Shown here in pieces: positions 3,297-10,652 of a DNA stretch of 10,652 nt. Origin of the DNA: Campylobacteraceae bacterium (lineage in GTDB: Bacteria; Campylobacterota; Campylobacteria; Campylobacterales; Sulfurovaceae). The translations under genes were made by a program, and so were the position numbers. The notes below the pieces were generated by a model that did not search any database, was not told where the DNA came from, and saw only the letters and a program-made list of their open reading frames with translations. The stretch covers positions 1 through 10,652 of the forward strand of contig JALWZI010000160.1 of assembly GCA_027002755.1 (NCBI GenBank). Reading direction: 5' to 3'. Numbering within the stretch: the stretch's first letter is position 1; each line of letters opens with the position of its first letter.

Positions 3297-3881
3297 ATGA
3301 AAAAAATCCTTTATAAAATCACCCTGCCTCTTCAGTATCTCCTGGTCTTTCTCTTTATCGTTTTCGAGGAGTTCATCTGGGAGGGGATCGCGGTTCCTGT
3401 CGGGGAGTATCTGCGCTCTCTGCGGCTCCTGCAGGCACTGGAGCGTGCAGTTCGGAAGATGAACCGCTATCTGATCCTGGTGCTCTTTGTCCTGCTCTTC
3501 GGCGGGGTGGAGCTGGCGGGGGTGACGGCAGGGATTCTGATCGTGCAGGGGATGATCCTGCCGGGTCTCCTGCTCTACGGGCTCAAGATCCCCATCGCCG
3601 CCTTTACTTTCTGGCTCTTCGGTGTCAGCCGGGAGCAGCTTCTCTCCTTTGCCTGGTTCGCCTGGGCCTACGAGCGAATCCTGGCTTTCCTTGCCTGGCT
3701 GAAATCGAGCGAGATCTACCGCAAAAGTATGGCAGCGGTTCATCGTCTCAAAGAGGAGCTGCGCCGAATCTGGCAGCAGATCAAAGTTGTTCTCCCTGCC
3801 GGAGAGAACGGCCTTCTGCATCGGCTCAAGGCGCTCTACCGTAGGGTGCGTGACGAGCTGCGGCGCAACAGGATGCGGTGA
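3297..3881 (+). CDS. Hypothetical membrane protein with basic C-terminal helices
   Basis: I do not recognise the family. The 194-residue product has an N-terminal hydrophobic segment (about 8-23) ending in the acidic/aromatic FEEFIWEG, an amphipathic stretch (39-55), then two long hydrophobic segments (about 58-86 and 87-109). The last 85 residues form soluble-looking basic helices rich in K, R and E (LKEELRRIWQ, YRRVRDELRRNRMR), likely cytoplasmic. No signal peptidase site, cysteine pair or catalytic motif is visible. The ATG at 3297 has no Shine-Dalgarno and sits 5 nt behind a -10 box. A later ATG at 3461 would remove the first membrane segment and is less likely. The gene converges on smpB with a 10-nt gap. 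It is a real gene by length, codon use and hydropathy, but its function is unknown. Confidence 0.75.
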   Translation: MKKILYKITLPLQYLLVFLFIVFEEFIWEGIAVPVGEYLRSLRLLQALERAVRKMNRYLILVLFVLLFGGVELAGVTAGILIVQGMILPGLLLYGLKIPIAAFTFWLFGVSREQLLSFAWFAWAYERILAFLAWLKSSEIYRKSMAAVHRLKEELRRIWQQIKVVLPAGENGLLHRLKALYRRVRDELRRNRMR

Positions 3882-3891
3882 GTATTCGCTT

Positions 3892-4353
3892 TTAGAGGCT
3901 GCGGTTCTTCATCGCCTGGGCCGCTTCCCGATCGAGGGTGCGGCGCTTGAGGGTTTCGCGTTTGTCGTGGAGTTTTTTCCCTTTGGCCAGGGCGATGGAG
4001 AGCTTGGCCCGGTTGCGTTCGTTGAAGTAAAGCATCAGAGGGACGATGGTGAGCCCCTCTTTGTTGACTTTGCCGTAGAGTGAGTGGAGCTGCTTTTTGT
4101 GAAGCAGCAGCTTGCGGGGAGCGCGCTCTTCTCTGGCGAAGTGGCGGTTGGCGGTCTCCAGGTGGCCGATGTGGGCGTTGAGGAGCCAGAGTTCGCCCTT
4201 GATGAAGCGGCAGTAGGCGTCGTTGATATTGACCCGTCCCTGGCGCAGCGCTTTGACCTCGCTGCCCTGAAGCTCGATTCCCGCTTCGTACTTCTCCAGG
4301 ATCTCGTATTCGTGTCTGGCTTTTTTGTTCTGGGCGATGATTTTGATGGCCAT
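3892..4353 (-). CDS. smpB: SsrA-binding protein SmpB
   Basis: SmpB binds tmRNA and delivers it to stalled ribosomes for trans-translation. The 153-residue product has the OB-fold core (IIAQNKKARHEYEILEKYEA, then GIELQGSEVKALRQGRVNI) and the HIGHLETANRHF segment. Its basic C-terminal tail, KGKKLHDKRETLKRR, is the part that enters the mRNA channel. I chose ATG 4353 because the protein then begins as family members do and has the usual length. An upstream in-frame start at 4404 would add 17 residues encoded partly by the promoter. A TATAAT box lies 35 nt upstream. It is the last gene of the minus-strand cluster and converges on the membrane-protein gene. Confidence 0.97.
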   Translation of the reverse strand: MAIKIIAQNKKARHEYEILEKYEAGIELQGSEVKALRQGRVNINDAYCRFIKGELWLLNAHIGHLETANRHFAREERAPRKLLLHKKQLHSLYGKVNKEGLTIVPLMLYFNERNRAKLSIALAKGKKLHDKRETLKRRTLDREAAQAMKNRSL

Positions 4354-4387
4354 GGGTCCGCTTTCACTCTTTGGGGTTCGTGGCGGA

Positions 4388-4393
4388 ATTATA
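4388..4393 (-). promoter_or_regulatory. smpB promoter -10 box
   Basis: On the minus strand TATAAT reads from 4393 to 4388, giving a start near 4381 and a leader of about 28 nt before ATG 4353. There is no TTGACA at the right distance. The expected -35 region (about 4411-4416) lies inside the hairpin that forms the end of the adjacent repeat array. Confidence 0.6.
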
Positions 4394-4401
4394 GCACGTG
4401 G

Positions 4402-4643
4402 CACGCCGCGGAGGCGTGATCATTGGTGATTAGTCATTGGTCATTGGGGAAGGGCAGTGAGATCCGCTTTGCGGATCGGCAGTGGGCAATGGGCCTTGAG
4501 TGCGCCTCCAATGCAGTTTTTGGTCATTAGTCAATGGCTATTGGAGGCAGGGTTTCAGCCCTGCATGCGGGACTGAAGTCCCGCCTCCATAAACACGCGT
4601 TGCGAAACAACGCCCCGAAACTCCTAATTCCTAATTCCTAATT
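4402..4643. repeat. Heptamer/hairpin repeat mosaic A (smpB/ispE gap)
   Basis: The whole gap is repeat-derived. From the left: hairpin CACGCC/GGCGTG (4402-4418); heptamers TCATTGG, TGATTAG, TCATTGG, TCATTGG in exact 7-nt phase from 4420; perfect hairpin GATCCGC-TTT-GCGGATC (4461-4477); heptamers GGCAGTG, GGCAATG, GGCCTTG (4478-4498); a fragment resembling the core end (GCCTCCAATGCAG, near 4505); heptamers TTGGTCA, TTAGTCA, ATGGCTA, TTGGAGG (4520-4547); the core double hairpin (4543-4588); hairpin GCGTTG-CGAAA-CAACGC (4597-4613); and CCTAATT three times (4623-4643). The last copy contains the ispE stop codon. The hairpin-core order is inverted relative to arrays B and C. Confidence 0.9.
4543..4588 (-). 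repeat. REP/BIME-like double hairpin, copy 1
   Basis: This 46-nt element reads, on the minus strand, GGAGGCGGGACTTCAGTCCC, then GCATGC, then AGGGCTGAAACCCT, then GCCTCC. It contains an outer GGAGG/CCTCC stem and two inner hairpins whose loops, TTCA and TGAA, are complementary. Each hairpin is preceded by GGAG on its own strand, which recalls the GTAG-hairpin layout of REP sequences paired in inverted orientation (BIME). Three further copies lie at 5530, 6635 and 10531. Confidence 0.88.
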
Positions 4644-5408
4644 CTTCATTTTGAAAAAGCTGCTTCCGCTGCCGCTGAAGAACCAGCCGGGTCGGGCGTA
4701 GTCCCGGAGCCTGGGGCAGGCCAGCAGGGCGGCGGGGTAGAGGTCGTTGAGTTTTTCCGGATCGGCGATGCGCTCCAGGAGTTCGGCGGAGGGGATCCGT
4801 TCCCAGCCGAGGAAGGAGAGGGGATCGATGTCGGAGAGGAAACGCTCTTTGAAGACTCTGTAAACTGCTGCGGTGTCACAGGCGACGGGGGGTGTCTCGA
4901 TCTCCAACGCCAGAGGCTCCTCGTCGAAAGGTTCCACGATCTCTCCGAAACCCGAAACATTGGCGCTGGGGCAGTCGTAGATGAAAAAGGGGATATCGGC
5001 TCCTATGGTCGAGCCGATCCGGGCCAGTTCGTCGGTGGAGAGCTTCAGATCGCAGACCTGCTTTGCCAGGCGCATGAAAGCCGCGGCGTCGGAGCTGCCG
5101 CCCCCCAGGCCGGCCTGGGAAGGAATGCGCTTCTCCACCACCACCTTGTGGTGATAGAAAAACTCCAACAGATCCAGATCTCCCGTGGCTTCGTTGAGGG
5201 CTTTCCAGGCTTTGTAAACGGTATTGGACTCCCTGGGCACACCGGGGCAGCCTTCGATCGTGAAGGTTTCGCACTCACAGGGCACGAAACGGATCGTGTC
5301 GTAGAGATCCGTCACCTGCATGAAACGGGAGAGGAGGGTGTGGTAGCCCTCTTTGTGTCCGGTGATCTTGAGGAAGATGTTGACTTTGGCGGGAGCTTTG
5401 ATGGTCAT
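4638..5408 (-). CDS. ispE: 4-diphosphocytidyl-2-C-methyl-D-erythritol kinase IspE
   Basis: IspE phosphorylates CDP-methylerythritol with ATP in the MEP pathway of isoprenoid synthesis. The 256-residue GHMP kinase has normal length. Visible motifs are PAKVNIFLKI near the N-terminus with the catalytic lysine region, the glycine-rich ATP loop PSQAGLGGGSSDAAA (about 96-110), GADIPFFIY with the catalytic aspartate region (about 135-143), and the C-terminal GHMP motif FSGSGSSFFK. The ATG at 5408 overlaps by 4 nt the end of the repeat-derived frame upstream. Both the start codon and GGAGG (5421-5417) lie inside a perfect hairpin. The stop TAG and last codon come from a CCTAATT heptamer tract, so the natural C-terminus may have been altered. 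Confidence 0.97.
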   Translation of the reverse strand: MTIKAPAKVNIFLKITGHKEGYHTLLSRFMQVTDLYDTIRFVPCECETFTIEGCPGVPRESNTVYKAWKALNEATGDLDLLEFFYHHKVVVEKRIPSQAGLGGGSSDAAAFMRLAKQVCDLKLSTDELARIGSTIGADIPFFIYDCPSANVSGFGEIVEPFDEEPLALEIETPPVACDTAAVYRVFKERFLSDIDPLSFLGWERIPSAELLERIADPEKLNDLYPAALLACPRLRDYARPGWFFSGSGSSFFKMKN

Positions 5409-5430
5409 CGGAGAGGCCTCCGATGACCAT
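5401..5430 (-). promoter_or_regulatory. Perfect 13-bp hairpin hiding the ispE ribosome binding site
   Basis: ATGGTCATCGGAG (5401-5413) and CTCCGATGACCAT (5418-5430) are perfect inverted repeats around a 4-nt loop. In the ispE mRNA the 5' arm and loop contain the Shine-Dalgarno GGAGG (5421-5417), 8 nt before the start, and the 3' arm contains the ATG (5408-5406). Unless opened, for example by a ribosome translating the upstream frame that ends at 5405, the site should be closed to initiation. The next bases rightward begin a GTGGGTA heptamer tract. Confidence 0.7.
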
Positions 5431-5643
5431 CAGTGGGTAGTGGGTAGTGGGTAGTGGGTAGATTTTTAATGGAGAATTGAGAATTGAGAATGGAGAATTT
5501 TGGGGCGTTGCTCCACAGCGCGTGTTTTTGAAGGCGGGACTTCAGCTCCGCAATGCAAGGCTGAAGCCCTGCCCCTAATAACCAATAACCAATAACCAAT
5601 AACGGCGCCGCAGGCGCCTTCACTTGCGACTTGCGACTTTCGA
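5431..5643. repeat. Heptamer/hairpin repeat mosaic B (ispE/truB gap)
   Basis: In order: GTGGGTA four times (5433-5460); linker GATTTTTAATG; GAGAATT four times with one variant (5472-5499); hairpin GCGTTG-CTCCA-CAGCGC (5505-5521); the core double hairpin (5530-5576); CAATAAC three times plus a partial copy (5576-5603); perfect hairpin GGCGCC-GCA-GGCGCC (5604-5618); linker TTCA; and CTTGCGA, CTTGCGA, CTTTCGA (5623-5643), ending 3 nt before the truB stop. Every tract is a 7-nt period with a different sequence. The module order equals that of array C, so B and C are copies of one composite element whose outer heptamers differ. Confidence 0.92.
5530..5576 (+). repeat. REP/BIME-like double hairpin, copy 2 (degenerate)
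   Basis: This copy has the same 47-nt layout as the other three, but the first hairpin is damaged (GGGACTTCAGCTCC instead of GGGACTTCAGTCCC) and the outer GGAGG stem has become GAAGG. The second hairpin, AAGGCTGAAGCCCT, is nearly intact. The decay suggests an older copy than the ones at 4543, 6635 and 10531. Confidence 0.82.
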
Positions 5644-5646
5644 CGT

Positions 5647-6483
5647 TCATCCTCCCTCTCCTTTATACTTTTCGATCCGATTGAGTCGGTACTTTATTTC
5701 ACCCTCTTCAAACTCCAGGATACTGAAGAACCTGTCGGTCTCGACCACATAGAGGCCGTTCTCCTGTTTTTCAAAAAAGCGGGGTTGGAGCTTTTTGCCG
5801 AGTTCCAGCCACTGGGGATCGCCGAAGTAGCGGTTTTTGGGCAGGGCCAGGTAGTCGAGGGGGTCGAGGGGCTCCTGCTTGCCGATCCGGAACTTTCCTT
5901 CCCGGAGGCGCCGGAGGCTGCTGAGGGTGCCGGGGAGGTCCAGGGCCTCGGCGATCATCGCTCCCAGGCTGCGGATGTAGGTGCCTTCGCTTACGGTCGC
6001 GTCGAAGGTGACGAAAGGATGCCGGTAGTGAAGCAGCTTGAGCTCATGGATCGTCGAGCGGACCGTAGGCAGTTCGATATCTCCGCCCCGGCGCATCACA
6101 TCATAGGCCCGTTCTCCGGCGATCTTTTTGGCACTGTATTTGGGGGGCAGATACTCCAGCTCCCCCTCCAGGGAGGCGAGGATCTCCCGGAGCCGCATTT
6201 CATCGACCCGGGGAACGTCGCGGATGCTCTGGATATTCTCGATATCGAGGCTGGATGACTCCACCCCCAGCCAGAGGGTGGCCCGGTAGGTCTTGGGGGT
6301 TTTGGCCAGGTATTGGAAGAGTCTGGTGTACTGCCCCGTGGCGACGATGAGGCAGCCGGTGGCGAAGGGATCCAGGGTACCGGAGAAGCCCACCTTCTTC
6401 GTACCGTATTGCCGCTTGATGACGTTCATGTAGCGGTTGGAGGAGACAAAGATGGGCTTGTCCACGACAAAGAGGCGATTCAC
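5647..6483 (-). CDS. truB: tRNA pseudouridine(55) synthase TruB
   Basis: TruB converts U55 in the T loop of tRNAs to pseudouridine. The 278-residue protein has the N-terminal FVVDKPIFVSSN segment, the catalytic motif GFSGTLDPFATG with the nucleophilic Asp at residue 38, YSAKKIAGERAYDVMRRG (the second conserved block) and GTYIRSLG. The C-terminal region is less conserved. The start is GTG at 6483, preceded by GGAG at 6-nt spacing, although this site is inside a hairpin (6487-6503). The GTG overlaps the end of an upstream repeat-derived frame as GTGA. The stop TGA overlaps the ATG of the csrA-slot frame. In C. jejuni the order is, as I recall, helicase-truB-csrA-ispE-smpB. Confidence 0.96.
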   Translation of the reverse strand: MNRLFVVDKPIFVSSNRYMNVIKRQYGTKKVGFSGTLDPFATGCLIVATGQYTRLFQYLAKTPKTYRATLWLGVESSSLDIENIQSIRDVPRVDEMRLREILASLEGELEYLPPKYSAKKIAGERAYDVMRRGGDIELPTVRSTIHELKLLHYRHPFVTFDATVSEGTYIRSLGAMIAEALDLPGTLSSLRRLREGKFRIGKQEPLDPLDYLALPKNRYFGDPQWLELGKKLQPRFFEKQENGLYVVETDRFFSILEFEEGEIKYRLNRIEKYKGEGG

Positions 6484-6486
6484 AGG

Positions 6487-6503
6487 GCGCTCCTATGGAG
6501 CGC
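6487..6503 (-). promoter_or_regulatory. Perfect 7-bp hairpin hiding the truB Shine-Dalgarno
   Basis: GCGCTCC-TAT-GGAGCGC is a perfect 7-bp inverted repeat. In the mRNA the arm nearest truB carries GGAGCGC, and its GGAG lies 6 nt before the GTG start, so pairing would block it. As at ispE, the outer arm borders a heptamer tract (AGTGAGG) and an upstream frame runs through the hairpin to end on the start codon. Confidence 0.55.
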
Positions 6504-6758
6504 AGTGAGGAGTGAGGAGTGAGGAATTTCTTTAACTAGTAACGAGTAACTAGTAACGAGTAACCGATTTTTGATTGAGAATTGAGAATTGAGAATTGAG
6601 AATTTTGGAGCGCTGCTTCGCAACGCGATTTTATGGAGGCGGGACTTTAGTCCCGCAAAGCAGGGCTGAAGCCCTGCCCCCAATAACCAATAACCAATAA
6701 CCAATAACAGCGCCACAGGCGCCTTCAGTTCCTCACTCCTCACTCCTCACTCCTCACT
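6504..6758. repeat. Heptamer/hairpin repeat mosaic C (truB/uvrD gap)
   Basis: In order: AGTGAGG three times (6504-6524); AACTAGT/AACGAGT alternating four times plus AACCGAT (6534-6568); linker TTTTTG; ATTGAGA four times (6574-6601); hairpin GCGCTG-CTTCG-CAACGC with one mismatch (6610-6626); the core (6635-6681); CAATAAC four times (6681-6708); hairpin GCGCC-ACA-GGCGC (6710-6722); linker TTCAGTT; and CCTCACT four times (6731-6758), ending 6 nt before the uvrD stop codon. The middle is a close copy of array B from the ATTGAGA tract to the TTCA linker. The outer tracts are unrelated in sequence but keep the 7-nt period. Confidence 0.92.
6635..6681 (+). repeat. REP/BIME-like double hairpin, copy 3
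   Basis: GGAGGCGGGACTTTAGTCCC, then GCAAAGC, then AGGGCTGAAGCCCT, then GCCCCC. The first stem is perfect with loop TTTA instead of TTCA; the second stem is perfect. The final CCTCC has become CCCCC, weakening the outer stem. Confidence 0.87.
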
Positions 6759-6764
6759 CGAAGA

Positions 6765-8822
<2,058 letters not shown>

Positions 8823-9052: not shown

Positions 9053-9955
9053 ATGCTGAAGGATTTCACGAAACTGGAGACATTTTTGACGGTGGTTCGG
9101 GAGCGAAGCTTCTCCCGGGCTTCGGCCAAGCTGGGGATCTCCCAGCCGGCGGTGACCCAGCAGATCAAGTTCATCGAGGGGTACCTGGACACCAAGGTGA
9201 TCGAACGCAAGAAGAACGGGATCCGCCTCACCAACGCCGGGGAGGAGCTCTACAAAGTCGCGGTACGGCTGGAGAAGTGTATCCATGAAGCCGAAGGGGA
9301 TATTCTCAAGATCATCAACAAAAAGATCACCTTCAAACTGGGAACCTCCTTCACCATCGGCAACTATGTCCTCCCGGGAGAGTGTCTCAATACCCTGAGC
9401 GAAGTGATCAACAACGATGTGAAACTCATCGTCGAAGTGAGCCGGAAGATCGTGGAGGAGGTCAAGAACCACAAGATCGATCTGGGCCTGATCGAGGCCC
9501 ATGTGGCCGATGACGACCTGATTGTCAGGGAGTGGCGGGAGGATGAGCTGGTGGTCTTCAGCAACGTGCCGATCCCCAAGGTTCTGCGGCCCGAGGATCT
9601 CTATGAGTTCAAATGGGTCTGCCGCGAAGAGGGGAGCCAGACCCGGATGGTGGTCCAGGAGGTCTTCGAGGAGCTGGGGGTCCGCTGCAAGGATTTCAAC
9701 GTTCTCTCCGAAGTCTCCAATACCACGGCGGTTCTCCAGACGGTCAAGAAAAGTAAAAAAGATACCGAGCATCCCACCGTCTCCATCGTCTCCCATTACG
9801 CCATCGCCGACGAGGTACAGAACGGCACGCTTTACGAAGCGCGTATCCAGGGTTATACGATGATGCGCAAGTTCTACATCGTCTACCACAAAGACAACAA
9901 GCACAACGCCTACGTGAACAATACGGTGGATTTTATTCTTTCCGGCAAGTGCTGA
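9053..9955 (+). CDS. LysR-family transcriptional regulator
   Basis: This 300-residue protein has the normal LysR layout. An N-terminal winged helix-turn-helix (residues 1-62) has recognition helix region SRASAKLGISQPAVTQQIKF and wing KNGIRLTNAGEELY; a linker helix follows; and residues about 92-295 form a two-lobe effector domain (FKLGTSFTIGNYVLP onward). The start ATG 9053 is preceded by GGAGGAG (about 9 nt). The ligand is not predictable. The neighbours are a divergent housekeeping helicase and a convergent periplasmic rhodanese, so a link to sulfur metabolism is a guess. The upstream region has two T-N11-A dyads consistent with autoregulation. The stop TGA lies inside an AGTGCTG heptamer tract, which may define a changed C-terminus (SGKC). 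Confidence 0.94.
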   Translation: MLKDFTKLETFLTVVRERSFSRASAKLGISQPAVTQQIKFIEGYLDTKVIERKKNGIRLTNAGEELYKVAVRLEKCIHEAEGDILKIINKKITFKLGTSFTIGNYVLPGECLNTLSEVINNDVKLIVEVSRKIVEEVKNHKIDLGLIEAHVADDDLIVREWREDELVVFSNVPIPKVLRPEDLYEFKWVCREEGSQTRMVVQEVFEELGVRCKDFNVLSEVSNTTAVLQTVKKSKKDTEHPTVSIVSHYAIADEVQNGTLYEARIQGYTMMRKFYIVYHKDNKHNAYVNNTVDFILSGKC

Positions 9956-9969
9956 GTGCTGAGTGCTGA
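9948..9969. repeat. AGTGCTG heptamer tract across the lysR stop codon
   Basis: AGTGCTG occurs three times in exact phase (9948-9968). The first unit is inside the lysR coding sequence, and its junction with the second forms the TGA stop (9953-9955). A 7-nt tract containing TGA stops all three frames. Confidence 0.85.
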
Positions 9970-10003
9970 GAGGGTTTGACAATTTTCTTTAATAGATAAA
10001 ATT

Positions 10004-10017
10004 CCTCATTCCTCATT
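10004..10017. repeat. CCTCATT heptamer pair across the rhodanese stop codon
   Basis: Two exact CCTCATT units span the 3' end of the minus-strand rhodanese gene. On that strand they read AATGAGG and supply the last codons (N, E, E) and the TGA stop (10008-10006). It is short, but it has the same period and placement as the longer tracts. Confidence 0.6.
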
Positions 10018-10419
10018 CAGCCGTTCCACCGGCATTCCCAGCTCACGCCATCCGTATTCGATCCCCCCTTTCAGCTCATAGACCTTTTCGTAGCCCAGTT
10101 TTTCGCTGAGCCATTTGCCGACGGCCTTGCTCCGGTTGGCATGGGCGCAGTAGAGAATGAAGGGGCTCTTTTTGTCCCTGACGATCTGAGTGAACTTCTC
10201 CAGCCACTCCCGGACATGGGGGCGTCCCTGTTCATCGAAAAACATCATCAGATGCGCTCCTTTGATGATGCCCCGTTCCCGCCATTCGGCCGGGGTACGG
10301 ATATCGATGACCGGGATGCCTTCGGCCTGCATTTTTTGAAGAGTCCTGGCATCGATAGACTGAAAACCGGCCTGGATGGCGAGAGTTAGAGCGGTGAGGA
10401 TCAGCAAGATTTTTTTCAT
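10006..10419 (-). CDS. Secreted single-domain rhodanese (sulfurtransferase-like protein)
   Basis: Rhodaneses carry a persulfide on a catalytic cysteine and pass sulfur between donors and acceptors. The 137-residue product has an N-terminal signal peptide (MKKILLILTALTLAIQAGF), so it should act in the periplasm. One rhodanese domain follows: IPVIDIRTPAEWRERGIIKGA (in two parts, about 35-55), the active-site loop YCAHANRS with the C-x4-R pattern (cysteine present, so probably active), and LKGGIEYGWRELGMPV near the end. ATG 10419 is chosen because the signal peptide starts there and AGGA lies upstream. An in-frame start at 10461 would add 14 residues before the signal. The gene converges on lysR. 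The sulfur substrate is unknown. Confidence 0.92.
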   Translation of the reverse strand: MKKILLILTALTLAIQAGFQSIDARTLQKMQAEGIPVIDIRTPAEWRERGIIKGAHLMMFFDEQGRPHVREWLEKFTQIVRDKKSPFILYCAHANRSKAVGKWLSEKLGYEKVYELKGGIEYGWRELGMPVERLNEE

Positions 10420-10652
10420 GATAGGTTCCTGAAATGAGATGGCGTATCGTAGCGTATCCACTGTGTAACGTATATAAAACGGTGGAGATCCTGTTCATTA
10501 TGATATTAACCGGCGAGATTTTTTTCTATAGGAGGCGGGATTTCAGTCCCGCAATGCAGGGCTGAAGCCCTACCTCCAATGTTAGGATAATATCCACCGG
10601 AATAATAGTTTATCGGAGAAGGAGTTTCCAGGGGGATACCGGGTATTTCATC
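10420..10652. other. Gene-free right edge upstream of the rhodanese gene
   Basis: No gene is supported here. On the minus strand a TATATA stretch (about 10471-10477) could be the rhodanese -10 box, though far upstream. GCGTATC occurs twice, 10 nt apart (near 10442-10458). A small palindrome, GGATA-A-TATCC, is at 10585-10595. The core repeat occupies 10531-10577. A minus-strand frame is open from the right edge to about 10510, but much of it is repeat DNA. Confidence 0.4.
10531..10577 (+). repeat. REP/BIME-like double hairpin, copy 4 (solitary)
   Basis: GGAGGCGGGATTTCAGTCCC, then GCAATGC, then AGGGCTGAAGCCCT, then ACCTCC. Both inner hairpins and the outer GGAGG/CCTCC stem are intact (one stem pair has become T-G). 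The loops TTCA and TGAA are complementary. Unlike the other three copies it has no heptamer tracts or accessory hairpins beside it, which shows that the core is a separable unit. Confidence 0.88.

Follow-up and report, generated by a model that had tools for sequence, protein, structure and literature searches.

Tandem arrays of 7-nt units are known from several bacterial lineages, and the stretch of DNA analyzed here, a 10,652-nt contig of a Campylobacteraceae bacterium (JALWZI010000160.1 of assembly GCA_027002755.1; hereafter the window), carries many such arrays, set among short hairpins in the gaps between its genes. The window is contig C160 of a draft genome, G000, of 1.57 Mb in 300 contigs and 75.6% completeness. 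According to passages of PMC4692102 and PMC4679880, many bacterial genomes carry more heptanucleotide repeats than expected; the period-7 excess in bacteria is already published and is not new. Those passages trace it to a 2007 study and give polymerase contact as a hypothesis, with no tested cause. The bacterial long simple repeats quoted there from Mrazek 2007 resemble those of the window in their sharp 7-nt excess and mainly intergenic location, but an ordered, oriented mosaic with hairpins, as found here, is undescribed in the quoted passages.

A second parallel is the TAACTGA repeat of the Beggiatoaceae. As the covered sections of PMC4679880 describe it, short heptamer arrays likewise occupy spacers, their presence differs among close relatives, close strains differ mostly by 7-nt indels, and translation is thought to limit their position and orientation. 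However, a single unit is involved, against tens here, it lies mostly just upstream of a start codon in forward orientation, and no ordered mosaic is described in those sections. In Xanthomonas and Nostoc, the repeats GGGAATC and GGGGA(T/C)T (passages of PMC4692102) are likewise heptamers of which some positions vary, and are mainly intergenic, commonly with four units in Xanthomonas, but their unit is of a G-rich, quadruplex type, and neither an order of repeat slots nor open reading frames (ORFs) bridging adjacent genes are mentioned in those passages. Elements of Geobacter metallireducens consist of about four tandem heptamers at 49 places in one genome (passages of PMC2700814); they differ in their GC-rich unit, GGACCGG, in being intragenic as well, and in the absence of a hairpin mosaic from those passages. 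Finally, repetitive extragenic palindromes (REP) and bacterial interspersed mosaic elements (BIME), as portrayed in part of PMC3733652, are small, high-copy extragenic palindromes, some of them paired, whereas the palindromes considered here adjoin heptamer arrays and G000 yielded no Y1 transposase match.

A word-match search of open-licence PubMed Central found no earlier account of ordered mosaics that combine heptamers, hairpins and bridge ORFs. Tandem heptamers reportedly occur in cyanobacteria as well, where they are said to have been described by Mazel in 1990, a study quoted in PMC4692102, as short tandemly repeated repetitive (STRR) sequences; the unit TTGGTCA is the same as TCATTGG here, although the phylum is another, and we know of no mosaic order for these repeats.

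On balance we lean towards the view that the tracts of the window form the repeat slots of a single family of ordered, dispersed intercistronic mosaics in its genus, which spreads between spacers and preserves coupling by the steps set out below. Array families stand in near-fixed order and orientation beside short-loop hairpins, and mosaics fill a uvrD-truB junction that is almost closed in array-free relatives. Moreover, a complete, single-contig genome of the window's genus (G011; 2,101,285 bp, 400 kb of it sampled), which is taken as Nitratifractor salsuginis on the strength of part of PMC3156401, also carries such arrays. A described isolate is thus at hand with arrays in operon gaps that are missing from relatives, a recurring order and a predicted effect on translation, and two questions become testable, namely the origin of 7-nt arrays and the bacterial tolerance of inserted DNA inside operons.

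Array families, their order and adjoining hairpins

Six families of units were defined from blocks in G000: F1 (AGTGAGG/AATGAGG/AGTGAAG/AGTGGGT), F2 (AGTAACT/AGTAACG), F3 (AATTGAG/AATGGAG/AATTAGG/AATGGTG/AATGATG), F4 (AATAACC/AATGACC/AATGATC/AATGACG), F5 (ACTGCCG/ACTTGCG/ACTGTCG) and F6 (CAAACGA). Of the pairs in the same orientation, all 70 in G000 and 54 of 55 in relatives run in the order F1 to F6 (the G000 count is no independent test, as the families were defined there); a further five and six pairs, respectively, are of mixed orientation. Counted by block, the slot order is kept in 13/13 blocks of G000 and 15/16 of relatives; neither pairs inside one block nor blocks that share an ancestor count as independent. 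Along transcription in co-directional spacers, the reverse-strand form (F6, F5, F4, F3, F2, F1) is the commoner, with 55 arrays vs 27. The named families cover 95 of the 127 arrays in G000, and the uvrD-truB junction of several relatives holds mosaics built of other units in unchanged order.

The window itself offers two main mosaics, in consecutive gaps of a row of minus-strand genes identified by Pfam: a UvrD-type helicase gene, here called uvrD (6765-8822), truB (5647-6483), a GHMP kinase gene (4638-5408), which we take to be ispE, and smpB (3892-4404). Arrays were delimited with Tandem Repeats Finder (TRF). Between uvrD and truB, a hairpin with a 7-bp stem lies directly upstream of the truB start (6487..6503) and is followed by slot F1 (AGTGAGG, 6504..6525), slot F2 (6533..6564, TAACTAG and TAACGAG alternating with a 14-nt superperiod), slot F3 (ATTGAGA, 6574..6604), two REP/BIME-like hairpins (6635..6675), slot F4 (CCAATAA, 6680..6708) and, at the uvrD end, an F1-family array in inverted orientation (TCCTCAC, 6730..6759). 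In this mosaic, the one considered for terminal inverted repeats of the transposon or MITE type, inverted F1 arrays stand at both ends. Between truB and ispE stand slots F1 (AGTGGGT, 5432..5461), F3 (GAGAATT, 5468..5499), F4 (AATAACC, 5577..5603) and F5 (ACTTGCG, 5622..5644), the last two separated by a GGCGCC-type hairpin (5604..5618). The 165 nt at 5461..5625 recur at 6566-6730 with 87% identity, so that the window holds two copies of the mosaic core.

In 81 G000 contigs, including those picked for carrying TCATTGG, 88 arrays reach 18 nt or more, and between them they use 28 units. These units are not strangers to each other, as an earlier, sequence-only reading of the window had supposed in calling them unrelated in sequence. 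In the index-number sample of G000, 16 of 21 units have a neighbour at one mismatch (shuffled mean 8.4, although the maximum of 200 shuffles was also 16), and 13 one-mismatch pairs were counted (shuffled mean 4.8, maximum 9 of 100). Such pairs also exceeded all shuffles in G011 (11, maximum 10) and in a set combining G004, G005, G008 and G010 (7, maximum 6), and they lay within the shuffled range in G001 (4) and G006 (5); the number of units with a neighbour was within the shuffled range in all four sets of relatives. Independent tracts of unrelated units are the wrong description for this genus, where unit families occupy ordered slots.

Gene context was taken from a codon-scored gene caller, with spacers of at least 60 nt. 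It replaced a simple ORF-based context, discarded after placing 68/186 arrays inside ORFs, a count that arose because the arrays are themselves open. By the codon-scored calls, heptamer arrays are mainly intergenic, with the midpoints of 153/186 falling outside genes. Mosaic-bearing spacers comprised 60 co-directional, 15 convergent and 4 divergent cases, against 242, 66 and 105 array-free ones; the 60 co-directional mosaics derive from G000 (22), G011 (18) and five other genomes (20). The rarity of divergent spacers among mosaics (4/79 vs 105/413 controls), together with an array length that peaks at 3-4 copies (75/91), would suit arrays that serve as protein binding sites on DNA or RNA, as has been suggested for the Beggiatoaceae repeat. 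However, there are many units, which differ at the same junction in close relatives, and no single binding sequence is kept, so that we consider this explanation unlikely.

Hairpins were counted beside arrays where a perfect stem of at least 7 bp with a loop of 2-6 nt lay within 60 nt. They accompany 37/77 arrays in G000, 16/39 in G011 and 19/48 in other members of the genus, and their density beside G000 arrays is 5.04 per kb; the figure falls to 1.34 at a distance of 1 kb and to 0.22 when the flanks are shuffled. A particular hairpin, GCGGGACTNNAGTCCCGC, has 13 copies in G000 and 2-24 in seven of twelve relatives within the genus (0 in G002, G003, G010, G011 and G012), and is also present in 7/47 genomes outside it. 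An Rfam search gave just two matches, both under the gathering score (E 0.15 and 0.37). The first of the paired hairpins at 6635 is present 13 times in G000, and the pair is preceded by GGAG, which at this one site may be compared with the GTAG or CGTC tag of REP. A further copy of the pair lies at 10531-10571, where no adjacent heptamer array was reported.

Short palindromes in high copy in spacers are also what would be seen if these were REP/BIME elements mobilized by REP-associated tyrosine (RAYT, Y1) transposases, the heptamers being by-products. Within the genus, Y1_Tnp matches were found in G001 (1), G008 (4) and G011 (9), and three array-bearing genomes beyond it (G017, G036 and G039) have them too. 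Nevertheless, no match was found in array-bearing G000, G004, G005, G006 and G009 (75.6%, 99%, 88%, 88% and 96% complete), and the domain is present, too, in genomes without arrays in the stretch sampled. The transposase explanation accordingly appears very doubtful.

Operon junctions, bridge ORFs and start palindromes

Sixty genomes were searched for truB, and 30 truB loci were compared. At array-bearing loci the uvrD-truB gap spans 21-385 nt with a median of 245 (9 of 10 measured), while at array-free loci it runs from -4 to 158 nt with a median of 8 (15 of 20 measured). At the next junction, the distance from the truB stop to the N-terminal motif of IspE is 250 nt in the window, 194 in G005, 209 in G004 and 112 in G011; it is 8 nt in G006 and 14 nt in G001, whose TruB proteins are 94% and 93% identical to that of the window. 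Among array-free loci the truB-ispE distance lies between -16 and 17 nt in nine and is 74 nt in L229. Of the 60 mosaics in co-directional spacers, 25 share a match of 60 nt or more with another such spacer in the sampled DNA of the same genome. Mosaics, or pieces of them, presumably spread between spacers by copying or recombination, and each array would meanwhile be kept uniform through gain and loss of whole 7-nt units, in the course of which a point change would sweep through an array and a slot would drift among one-mismatch units.

Mosaics with two or more arrays in co-directional spacers tend to be readable in the sense direction. With a frame counted as open when it spans 93% or more of the spacer, 18/25 of them have an open sense frame and 2/25 an open antisense frame; shuffling gave a mean of 6.9 and a maximum of 12 of 25 open in sense, and the paired comparison of sense with antisense stands at 17 to 1 (p = 0.00014). 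Length-matched controls were sense-open in 42/141 and antisense-open in 42 (p = 0.00009 vs the multi-array mosaics). Moreover, an ORF covering at least 85% of the spacer with an ATGA-type stop/start overlap was found in 16/60 mosaics (69-549 nt), compared with 8/135 controls (100-400 nt; p = 0.0002). Both main mosaics of the window contain such a bridge ORF on the minus strand. That of the truB-ispE mosaic (5405..5650, 81 aa) overlaps at both ends, its ATG with the truB stop and its TGA with the ispE start, each within ATGA, and that of the uvrD-truB mosaic (6480..6743, 87 aa) overlaps at its downstream end, where its TGA meets the GTG start of truB. The smpB-ispE spacer is in the opposite orientation and has no frame open throughout. 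Neither bridge ORF matches a Pfam family at E 0.01, and the nine database relatives of the 5405-5650 ORF are without a Pfam domain, which suggests that some small hypothetical proteins in the databases may be readings of such mosaics.

We propose that intra-operon mosaics would be retained mainly while their sense strand stays open, with ribosomes led along the bridge ORF, from the stop of the upstream gene to the start of the next, so that translational coupling survives. In this manner, sense-readable fillers between operon genes may let the next gene still be expressed.

A further feature is found at the gene starts. A start palindrome was scored where a hairpin of 9 bp or more, with up to one mismatch, has the downstream start within its 3' arm or next to it; such palindromes occur in 13/60 mosaics and in 3/189 controls of at least 100 nt (p = 1e-6). 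In these cases the upstream arm corresponds, in reverse complement, to the bases with which the gene itself begins. For example, the palindrome at 5399..5432 holds the ispE start codon, and, although the window, G004 and G011 differ in the first codons of ispE, the upstream arm in each of them fits the gene that it adjoins. The ispE palindrome is imperfect in G005 and present in G008 (L274), and none in G010 reaches the threshold. In several of the listed cases an array abuts the palindrome's outer end. A review describes, in the part available, structure around a downstream start that is unfolded by translation of the upstream gene (PMC12548453), and the arrangement therefore fits a proposed mode of coupling, in which ribosomes on the bridge ORF would open the palindromes around some starts. 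The palindromes may have arisen as fold-back copies made when the spacer was formed; their arrangement is what fold-back copying would be expected to give, and selection for coupling hairpins could also keep it.

The same features permit a variant account, in which an accreting intergenic element of a new kind, lacking a gene of its own, is built outward from the gene start, fold-back palindromes alternating with re-copied 7-nt arrays in fixed order, and escapes counter-selection since a stop-free bridge ORF keeps coupling. We regard this as a rather unlikely history for the mosaics.

The 7-nt period and its possible causes

Period counts in G000 were made on 75 contigs (372,760 bp), mostly taken by index number and including C251, picked for carrying TCATTGG, with its stand-in C252. 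Exact runs of at least 14 matched positions were sought at periods 2 to 30. Period 7 gave 40 runs, and no other period gave more than 3: there was one run each at 8, 9, 12 and 28 nt and three each at 14 and 21 nt, such that 7 of the 10 remaining runs fall at 14, 21 or 28. Leaving out C251 and C252 reduced the period-7 runs to 34 and left other periods unchanged. With the looser threshold of 10 matched positions, period 7 gave 63 runs, followed by 21 (21 runs), 14 (19), 9 (10), 12 (8) and 15 (8). A smaller set of 21 contigs, seven of which were the window and contigs picked for TCATTGG, yielded 36 period-7 runs at 12 or more matched positions and 0 in a single shuffle. In G011, 30 runs were found at period 7 and at most 2 at any other. 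The same excess in a complete genome is thus no product of binning or draft assembly. The sequence-only reading had named a genome-wide 7-nt peak as its test and had considered that the tracts might be confined to one locus; the peak is there in the sampled G000 contigs, and period-7 runs extend across these contigs and G011. A common process with a 7-nt step, as it proposed, is possible.

Loci from other phyla were chosen by bait, with the bait unit removed at period 7 only, and do not constitute a survey. At these loci period 7 leads in Cyanobacteria, with 38 runs against 15 for the runner-up, and likewise in Acidobacteriota (22 vs 4), Desulfobacterota (13 vs 10), Chloroflexota (6 vs 3) and a mixed group (6 vs 4). 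In Bacteroidota the 40 runs at 7 nt are narrowly outnumbered by 44 at 21 nt, and at three Bacillota loci period 7 has no lead. Hairpins adjoin 12/100 of the bait-chosen arrays in Bacteroidota and 4/46 in Cyanobacteria, and none in Chloroflexota (0/13), Acidobacteriota (0/31) or Desulfobacterota (0/22). Arrays of 7-nt units therefore do not need hairpins.

This lead of period 7 where array-side hairpins are rare or not found speaks for independent slippage of the polymerase, the 7-nt preference coming from about 7 nt in contact with the replicating enzyme; such contact was proposed for long simple repeats in bacteria by Mrazek 2007, as quoted in passages of PMC4679880 and PMC4692102. Slippage is further favored by the failure of all 60 relatives to pass the cut-off for MutS1. 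It does not predict, however, the small shared vocabulary (28 units, 88 arrays), the slot order or the hairpins beside the arrays, and we give it a modest chance of accounting for the tracts. MutS1 was also tried as a separator and rejected, as 50 of the 60 relatives have weaker matches and the groups are not set apart; array-free relatives fall short of the cut-off just as array-bearing ones do, so that MutS1 gives no account of why only some genomes carry arrays. Loss of the hairpin nuclease SbcD was dropped as a cause as well. No array-bearing genome passes its cut-off, but only 12/298 sampled genomes of the phylum do, and the comparison gave 0/12 vs 4/14 (p = 0.10), with G010, which has no array in 20 kb, among the 12 and with G012 and G027 excluded.

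A fixed 7-nt step would likewise follow if a reverse transcriptase or a telomerase-like enzyme added the repeats from a 7-nt template, and RVT_1 has one match each in array-bearing G017 and G039 outside the genus. Tens of units would, however, require tens of templates, and no RVT_1 (PF00078) match was found in the eight array-bearing genomes of the genus, among which G011 is complete and G000, G005 and G006 are less than 90% complete; an enzyme outside PF00078 would escape this search. Templated addition is scarcely credible here. The suggestion, made from the window, that Y1/RAYT transposases or unusual polymerases act as agents is thus left unsupported, with Y1_Tnp not found in five array-bearing genomes and RVT_1 in none of the eight.

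Other rules for the units did not hold up. An A-R-T core (AAT or AGT) was noticed post hoc and fails as a general rule in several phyla: it is present in 23/28 units of G000 (shuffled mean 14.2), 23/24 of Bacteroidota (17.0), 18/25 of Cyanobacteria (13.8, P 0.03), 4/5 of Chloroflexota (2.4, P 0.13), 4/6 of the mixed group (2.5, P 0.19), 4/11 of Acidobacteriota (3.5), 4/8 of Desulfobacterota (4.5) and 2/2 of Bacillota (1.5). Absence of stops is no rule of the vocabulary either (23/28 units, shuffled mean 23.6). Sharing of units across phyla was rejected as weak evidence of transfer, given that four copies of AATTGAG occur in at least 115 stretches of the genome_contigs set, with titles spanning many phyla among the matches listed (80); in viral_contigs the reversed-pattern controls were not empty (18 vs 7, 5 vs 1 and 17 vs 7). 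Within the phylum, three copies of AATGACC were found in 5/298 sampled genomes (G000, G001, G011, G039 and G289; reversed control 0) and in none of three other genomes of the genus of G039. In G039 itself, which belongs to another family, a 20-kb locus (L311, G039:C1:1300001-1320000) has long arrays, of more than 10 copies, of AGTGAGC and CAATGCC, and few hairpins.

Several points weigh against the mosaic family as we describe it. Spread of the mosaics is inferred from similarity, and no clear target-site duplication was seen at the truB-ispE mosaic, the only one considered in this respect; ATGA stands on both of its sides and is accounted for by gene overlap as well. Arrays sampled in other phyla have few hairpins or none, so that the 7-nt excess at large is not accounted for by the mosaic. 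Among relatives, only 101/167 arrays belong to the six families, G011 supplies one comparable pair to the order count, and the GCGGGACT hairpin is missing from G011. Spacing is not tied to arrays without exception: the uvrD-truB gap is just 21 nt in array-bearing L227 and 158 nt in array-free L246, and the truB-ispE distance is 245 nt in L248 and 235 nt in L250, both array-free, so that this distance can grow without arrays. As for coupling, single-array mosaics show no bias (9/35 sense-open, 7/35 antisense-open), and mosaics do not have A after the start codon more often (31/60; 14/25 multi-array and 17/35 single-array) than controls do (61/135). When all frames are pooled, co-directional mosaics have no lower density of stops (4.44 per 100 nt in sense and 5.45 in antisense) than controls (4.00 and 4.04), which, given the sense-open frames, means that one frame is kept open. 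Finally, gene starts were called by script and not individually checked.

Remaining arrays and genes of the window

TRF reported 18 rows for the window. Thirteen have period 7, another covers one of these arrays with period 14, and the other four, at 353, 3042, 5854 and 9774, have periods of 9 or 12. The initial claim that every tandem repeat has a 7-nt period holds for these 13 rows but not for the four others, one of which (5854-5871, period 9) lies inside the range to which the claim applied. The tracts then listed are real except for GGCAGTG, which is not tandem; its copies flank a hairpin with a TTT loop (4461..4477) and gave no TRF row. CCTCACT, counted as a distinct tract, is AGTGAGG on the opposite strand.

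Compared with the ORF list, period-7 arrays of the window lie within spacers or slightly overlap gene ends. The smpB-ispE spacer, to which the TTT-loop hairpin belongs, contains an F4-family array (TCATTGG, 4420..4447), the hairpin GCGGGACTGAAGTCCCGC (4567..4584) and, at the ispE end, an F3-family array (TCCTAAT, 4622..4644). To the right of uvrD are a LysR-family gene on the plus strand (9053-9955) and a rhodanese-domain gene on the minus strand (10006-10461), both identified by Pfam. An AGTGCTG array (9948..9970) starts in the last codons and stop of the former, and an AATGAGG array (10001..10018) lies over the last codons and stop of the latter, as if arrays invade or start from gene ends. 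Elsewhere, the window holds a 194-aa ORF at 3297-3881 without a Pfam match at E 0.01 and a tRNA-Arg (cct) gene at 908-983.

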